This document shows, piece after piece, positions 20,442-20,651 of a DNA stretch of 64,000 bases. Below the pieces are notes generated by a model. That model saw only the letters and a list, made by a program, of their open reading frames with translations, ran no database searches and was not told the origin of the DNA. This DNA is from Planctomycetota bacterium. Lineage in GTDB: Bacteria; Planctomycetota; Planctomycetia; Pirellulales; Lacipirellulaceae. The stretch's first letter is position 1. Every line of letters begins with the position of its first letter. The stretch spans positions 124,001 to 188,000 of the forward strand of contig JAJDEF010000012.1 in assembly GCA_029259945.1 (NCBI GenBank), written 5' to 3'. Both the position numbers and the translations under genes were made by a program.

Positions 20442-20606
20442 ATGTCGGCAGTGTACAGGAATTTGGGCGACGGAGCAAATTCTGCTCAGCCGCCGCGATT
20501 GTTGAATCGAATGCGGCAGGTGTTACGCACAAAGCACTATGCTTACAGCACTGAGCAAGCTTATGTGCAGTGGGCTCGGCGGTACATTTTATATCATAGC
20601 GGGTAG
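20442..20606 (+). pseudogene. intI: Truncated integron integrase (IntI) N-terminal SAM-like domain
   Basis: PPRLLNRMRQVLRTKHYAYSTEQAYVQWARRYILYH matches the conserved IntI core-binding N-terminus; no catalytic domain follows. Confidence 0.8.
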
Positions 20607-20651
20607 CCCATGTTGCCTCTGCAACCTGGGTCGCAAAGCGACAAGAAGCAT
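20601..20651 (+). repeat. 50-bp dispersed repeat, copy 1 (abuts intI and supplies its stop codon)
   Basis: gggtagcccatgttgcctctgcaacctgggtcgcaaagcgacaagaagcat; reverse complement of 37952-38001 with 2 mismatches and 1 indel. Confidence 0.85.

Follow-up and report, generated by a model that had tools for sequence, protein, structure and literature searches.

A REPIN at the breakpoint of a truncated integron integrase gene in a member of the Planctomycetota

Introduction

The elements known as REPINs are dimers of GTAG-tagged REP sequences (Bertels and Rainey 2011, PMC3116915; for the GTAG families, see PMC3733652). GTAG REPs have been reported from Planctomycetes (PMC3733652), and R. baltica is cited for its many tyrosine transposases with flanking repeats (PMC3116915, PMC3733652). 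RAYT or TIRYT genes that have flanking repeats are referred to as REPtrons or TIRtrons, and in Pseudomonas double-palindrome ends are known, in which a GTAG unit is accompanied by another stem-loop (PMC3733652). In the integrons of Xanthomonas, intI is often truncated or deleted and the cassettes stay, and in X. oryzae pv. oryzicola transposases surround the truncated intI locus (PMC12444791).

The locus described here lies in a 64,000-nucleotide stretch of DNA, the whole of which was analysed and is called the window. It resembles the Xanthomonas integrons (PMC12444791) in that intI is truncated and the cassettes remain; it differs from them in that a REPIN is present at the breakpoint, with the REP tag acting as the stop codon, and in that several dispersed relic 5' ends are found per genome. 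The repeat family of the window shares with known REPINs (PMC3116915, PMC3733652) the presence of two inverted, GTAG-tagged palindromic units with the GTAG ends pointing outward, and it is likewise dispersed, mostly extragenic and RAYT-associated. It differs from them in having two successive hairpins per unit and a CAAGARG box, and in that the tag can be GTAG or GTGG and the hairpins, although they stay paired, differ widely in sequence. As in REPtrons (PMC3733652), RAYT-like genes (L175 and L157) are located between inverted units; unlike REPtrons, the genome of the window has the miniature form only, the matching transposase being found in sister species only. The parts are of known kinds, and the one feature that deserves a test is the presence, in two species, of a REPIN at the end of an intI stump.

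The integron and its integrase stump

The window contains a small integron that reads leftwards (~18165-20296) and comprises an attI-like site and three cassettes, next to which an integrase stump is located:

20442-20606, + strand: 5' fragment of intI, 53 codons plus the REP-supplied GGG TAG (from PF13495 and alignment to relatives)
20296-20441, no strand: attI-like region and putative intI promoter; junction ...AATAACAAG to TT, read leftwards
19619-20296, - strand: cassette 1, with an ORF at 19963-20259 (-) that has no Pfam match, ending in an attC-like site at ~19619-19750
18855-19618, - strand: cassette 2, with an ORF at 18944-19588 (-) and an attC-like site at ~18854-18927
18165-18854, - strand: cassette 3, with a membrane-protein-like ORF at 18237-18836 (-) and an attC-like site at ~18165-18241

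The frame that starts at ATG 20442 encodes 54 residues of an intI-like protein (MSAVYRNL...RRYILYHSG, followed by the stop). Its final codons, GGG and TAG (20601-20606), are the first six bases of a repeat, and the GTAG tag of this repeat supplies the stop codon (TAG, 20604-20606). A preliminary description of this DNA had placed the intI stop inside a repeat starting at 20601, and this reading of the frame and its codons bears it out. When a 60-aa ORF was compared with PF13495, residues 26-59 were matched (E 1.3e-7). Only the N-terminus is kept, amounting to 53 of about 314 codons. The stump aligns with full-length integrases from three relatives (G017, G005 and G011), all of which score above the TIGR02249 cut-off, and the G017 protein (MASIYR...RRYILFHDKRHPREMG...) reads on past the point where the stump ends. 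A search to the right of the REPIN found no intI remnant, and no second intI fragment was found in the window's genome (G000), where the other tyrosine recombinases seen were XerC/D-like. A scan of 84,980 genomes for an intact version of the window intI returned same-genus relics only. Since intI is cut after 53 codons, this would be a three-cassette integron without a working integrase of its own; the cassette array would be expected to stay as it is, barring the action of some other integrase.

The attI-like region contains AACTTGTTATTA, which is also present beside the intact intI of G017, and a palindrome, GGACTTATTTGGG...CCCAAATAAGTCC, within 20296-20441. A constant boundary between AAC and TTGTTATTA lies in the conserved region next to intI, a putative attI. 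Relatives have the stretch from the attI junction into intI in common and the DNA beyond the junction differs, as would be expected of an integron. The three attC-like sites were recognised by inspection, with paired R''/R' and L''/L' boxes. Folding supports sites 2 and 3; site 1 folded no better than its shuffles, and its region doubles as the start of an ORF on the + strand (cassette 1 also has a + strand ORF at 19666-20007).

The repeat belongs to a REPIN

G000 is a metagenome-assembled genome (MAG), 92% complete and in draft form in 44 contigs; those relatives that have named records are Planctomycetota MAGs, and the organism of the window is taken to be one from kinship alone. An alignment of positions 20601-20652 (52 bp) to the inverted sequence of 37951-38001 shows 2 mismatches and a gap of one base, in agreement with the reverse-orientation copy (37952-38001, 2 mismatches and 1 indel) of the preliminary description, and an inverted-repeat finder reported 34 nt of the pair at 97%. 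The genome-wide search for the repeat that had been proposed there yielded BLAST matches elsewhere in the genome, up to E 1.5e-16. The unit pattern CGGGTRGCCY...CAAGARG matched 6 times in G000, 10 in G010, 6 in G007 and 3 in G008, and the reversed pattern had 0 matches in these four genomes. The repeat is therefore not a product of chance, given its BLAST matches and the 6 pattern matches against 0 reversed ones.

The 50-mer that had been taken as the unit is not the complete element. The repeat at 20601 makes up one of the two arms of an inverted dimer of 143 bp (GGGTAG...CTACCC), the second arm of which has hairpins too diverged to be spotted easily by eye. Each arm consists of CGGGTRGCCY (GGGTRGCCC), hairpin 1, hairpin 2 and then CAAGARG.

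20601-20743, no strand: REPIN, an inverted dimer of GTAG-tagged double-hairpin REP units (DNA fold z-score -5.0)
20600-20649, + strand: left REP unit, made up of CGGGTAGCCC, hairpin 1, hairpin 2 and CAAGAAGC; contains the TAG stop
20697-20744, - strand: right REP unit, inverted
37951-38002, - strand: solo REP unit of the same family, the second copy of the preliminary description

Several features define the nature of this element. The unpaired tag, GTAG or GTGG, precedes hairpin 1 in nearly all of 30 units compared; inverted dimers are found not only in the window but also at five loci of G010 (L129, L136, L144, L145 and L147); and the family is dispersed and multicopy, with ~13 REP copies in G000 when diverged ones are included, as against 6 strict matches, these counts being based on searches. 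Because the same units flank RAYT genes in sister genomes (see below), we assign the 143-bp element to the REPINs, a known kind of miniature element that is non-autonomous.

An alignment of the 30 REP units, drawn from six genomes, was used to examine covariation. In the two hairpins 93.8% of the cells are paired, 87 cells are doubly changed compared with 30 in shuffles, and changes on both sides occur in 12 of the 14 pairs; shifting the pairing partner abolishes the signal. This strong compensatory covariation among the 30 copies shows that the hairpins are conserved in form, not in letters.

Genes for REP-associated Y1 (HUH) transposases, or RAYTs, are bracketed by inverted units in two sister genomes: L175 of G010 by those at 1325 + and 1977 -, and L157 of G012 by those at 1382 + and 2039 -. 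Other RAYT-class genes lie between diverged but recognisable units (L170 and L173) or have one on at least one side (L166). By inspection, some G010 dimers retain DNA between their arms that resembles the 3' end of a RAYT gene, as would be expected for internal deletion derivatives. In REPIN hosts the units usually flank a RAYT gene as well, and some hosts have been reported without one. No RAYT of the class that these units flank was found in the 92% complete draft of G000, whose four Y1 genes all belong to other classes. One of these, L002, was considered as the parent of the repeat and rejected: the repeats that flank it (GGGTAGCCCGCCGGGGGCGGGC...) belong to another family. The four Y1 transposases (L001-L004) differ from each other, and L002 and L004 also adjoin palindromic repeats of their own kinds.

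The junction and the empty locus in a close relative

The DNA to the right of the REPIN is chromosomal:

20744-20896, + strand: native flank upstream of a glycosyltransferase gene (20897-22096), with homology to G008 from 20747

G008, the closest relative at this locus, has neither the integron nor the REPIN, and its homology to the window starts again at 20747, the REPIN having ended 4 bp earlier, at 20743. Given this position, and as no intI is present to the right, the REPIN marks exactly where the intI stump gives way to native chromosomal DNA. The possibility that the repeat is native to this flank is rejected, since it is absent in G008. It should be noted that the intergenic DNA of G008 at the locus is incompletely alignable, and the left edge of the insert is therefore known roughly. 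No strict REP unit was found at those loci of relatives that were searched; neither was a direct duplication around the window insert, nor another genome that has the same intI both with and without the REPIN. None of the genomes examined carries this intI intact at this flank. In the case of the solo copy at 37951-38001, the intergenic DNA of seven relatives was not alignable, and its absence was seen only near the neighbouring gene.

A second REPIN-ended stump and other intI relics of the genus

At a different locus of G008 (L061), an intI fragment ends at codon 41 in a REPIN (5749-5594) that has the same build and other letters. No insert at the codon-41 position was found in five relatives. 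Directly after this REPIN comes a 133-bp stretch that repeats, at 93%, the 3' end of a neighbouring gene. The two copies, at 5461-5593 and 7705-7837, constitute a direct duplication around the integron fragment and the REPIN, the right copy beginning exactly at the REPIN end.

The genus contains at least 15 intI relics, most of which end without a REPIN. As about a dozen of the other N-terminal relics end in this way, between ~codons 16 and 53, the REPIN is not a general cause of intI decay. Some of the other relic 5' ends have frameshifts or stops. In G011, a long palindromic insert (TGCAAAGTCTATTTCTTGAACCGCC...GGCGGTTCAAGAAATAGACTTTGCA, L067, ~5904-6060) splits an intI relic. Two G008 contigs, L068 (5278-5693) and L209, have in common an already truncated attI-intI piece together with downstream DNA (274 bp at 92% and more), and truncated integron starts therefore seem to have been copied within the G008 genome.

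Discussion

The explanation that we consider probable is that of an integron whose intI was cut after 53 codons, with the REPIN at the breakpoint after a jump and adjacent loss. The REPIN would most likely have jumped into intI or its adjacent flank by way of folded single-stranded hairpins cut by a RAYT, and the sequence between the outer end of the REPIN and the far side would then have been lost, removing the catalytic part of intI. The deletion may have occurred before, with or after the insertion of the REPIN, which marks the breakpoint and may have caused the loss. The preliminary description had the repeat either arriving as a unit or marking a deletion or insertion junction. In favour of this are the mobility of the family, the lack of intI beyond the REPIN and the absence of the repeat from this flank in G008; against it stands the fact that a REPIN is unnecessary for truncation, as most relics of the genus testify.

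Indeed, the dozen or so relics that end without a REPIN would fit a history in which intI decayed and lost its 3' part first, and the REPIN was inserted later, by chance, at the old breakpoint. However, the REPIN abuts the stump and has native DNA within 4 bp, a like case is present independently at L061 of G008, and with ~10-20 units per genome exact adjacency twice would, by a rough estimate, be very unlikely; we regard such a coincidence as quite improbable. The integron fragment and the REPIN might also have arrived together as one moving block, with the REPIN end as the joint. The absence of the entire block from G008, the L061 block with its 133-bp copies, the right one of which starts exactly at the REPIN end, and the truncated attI-intI piece in two related G008 copies are all in line with such a block. 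Nevertheless, we think it unlikely: the two REPINs differ in sequence and in the intI codon at which they lie, the left edge showed no recognisable REP unit, and the window locus has no duplication. Finally, short repeats can give misjoins in a draft of 44 contigs, and the junction could be an artefact of metagenome assembly at the repeat. This is extremely improbable, because none of the other copies examined shares more than 32 nt exactly with the 143-bp REPIN; moreover, the DNA to the right is that which natively adjoins the next gene, and the independent assembly of G008 has a comparable junction.

Returning to a REPIN jump with adjacent loss, a broader version would be that RAYT-driven REPIN ends actively anchor deletions or joints beside integrons in this genus, repeatedly disabling or relocating them, much as ordinary insertion sequences do through adjacent deletions. 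Two unrelated REPIN-ended intI stumps, in two species, would fit this version. We consider it distinctly unlikely. The movement of REPINs and any effect of theirs on the surroundings are still poorly known, and the two independent junctions, neither of which has integrase sequence beyond the REPIN, make adjacent deletion by REP/RAYT systems testable. In addition, a family with RAYT-bearing parents in sister species, and with hairpins that are free in sequence but covary, would be suited to the study of RAYT recognition.

Other repeats in the window and its genome

A second REP-like family (CCGGCCAGGATGGCCGGGCTAT) has six copies in the window (38003-38035, 40573-40605, 47206-47238, 47590-47622, 49029-49061 and 10028-10052), and repeats resembling it flank L003, a different Y1 transposase gene of the same genome. 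Four of the G000 REP copies (L005, L009, L013 and L107) have a further dispersed motif, TTTACCGCGGAGGGCGCAGAGA.CGCGGAG, within ~100 bp. At 37686-37767, 3' of a YchF-like GTPase gene, the window has a perfect 31-bp inverted repeat with a 20-nt loop (TGGGTGCCACTGTCTGGCTTGTCCAGCAGTG), and hairpins like it are present in relatives (L073 and L218).
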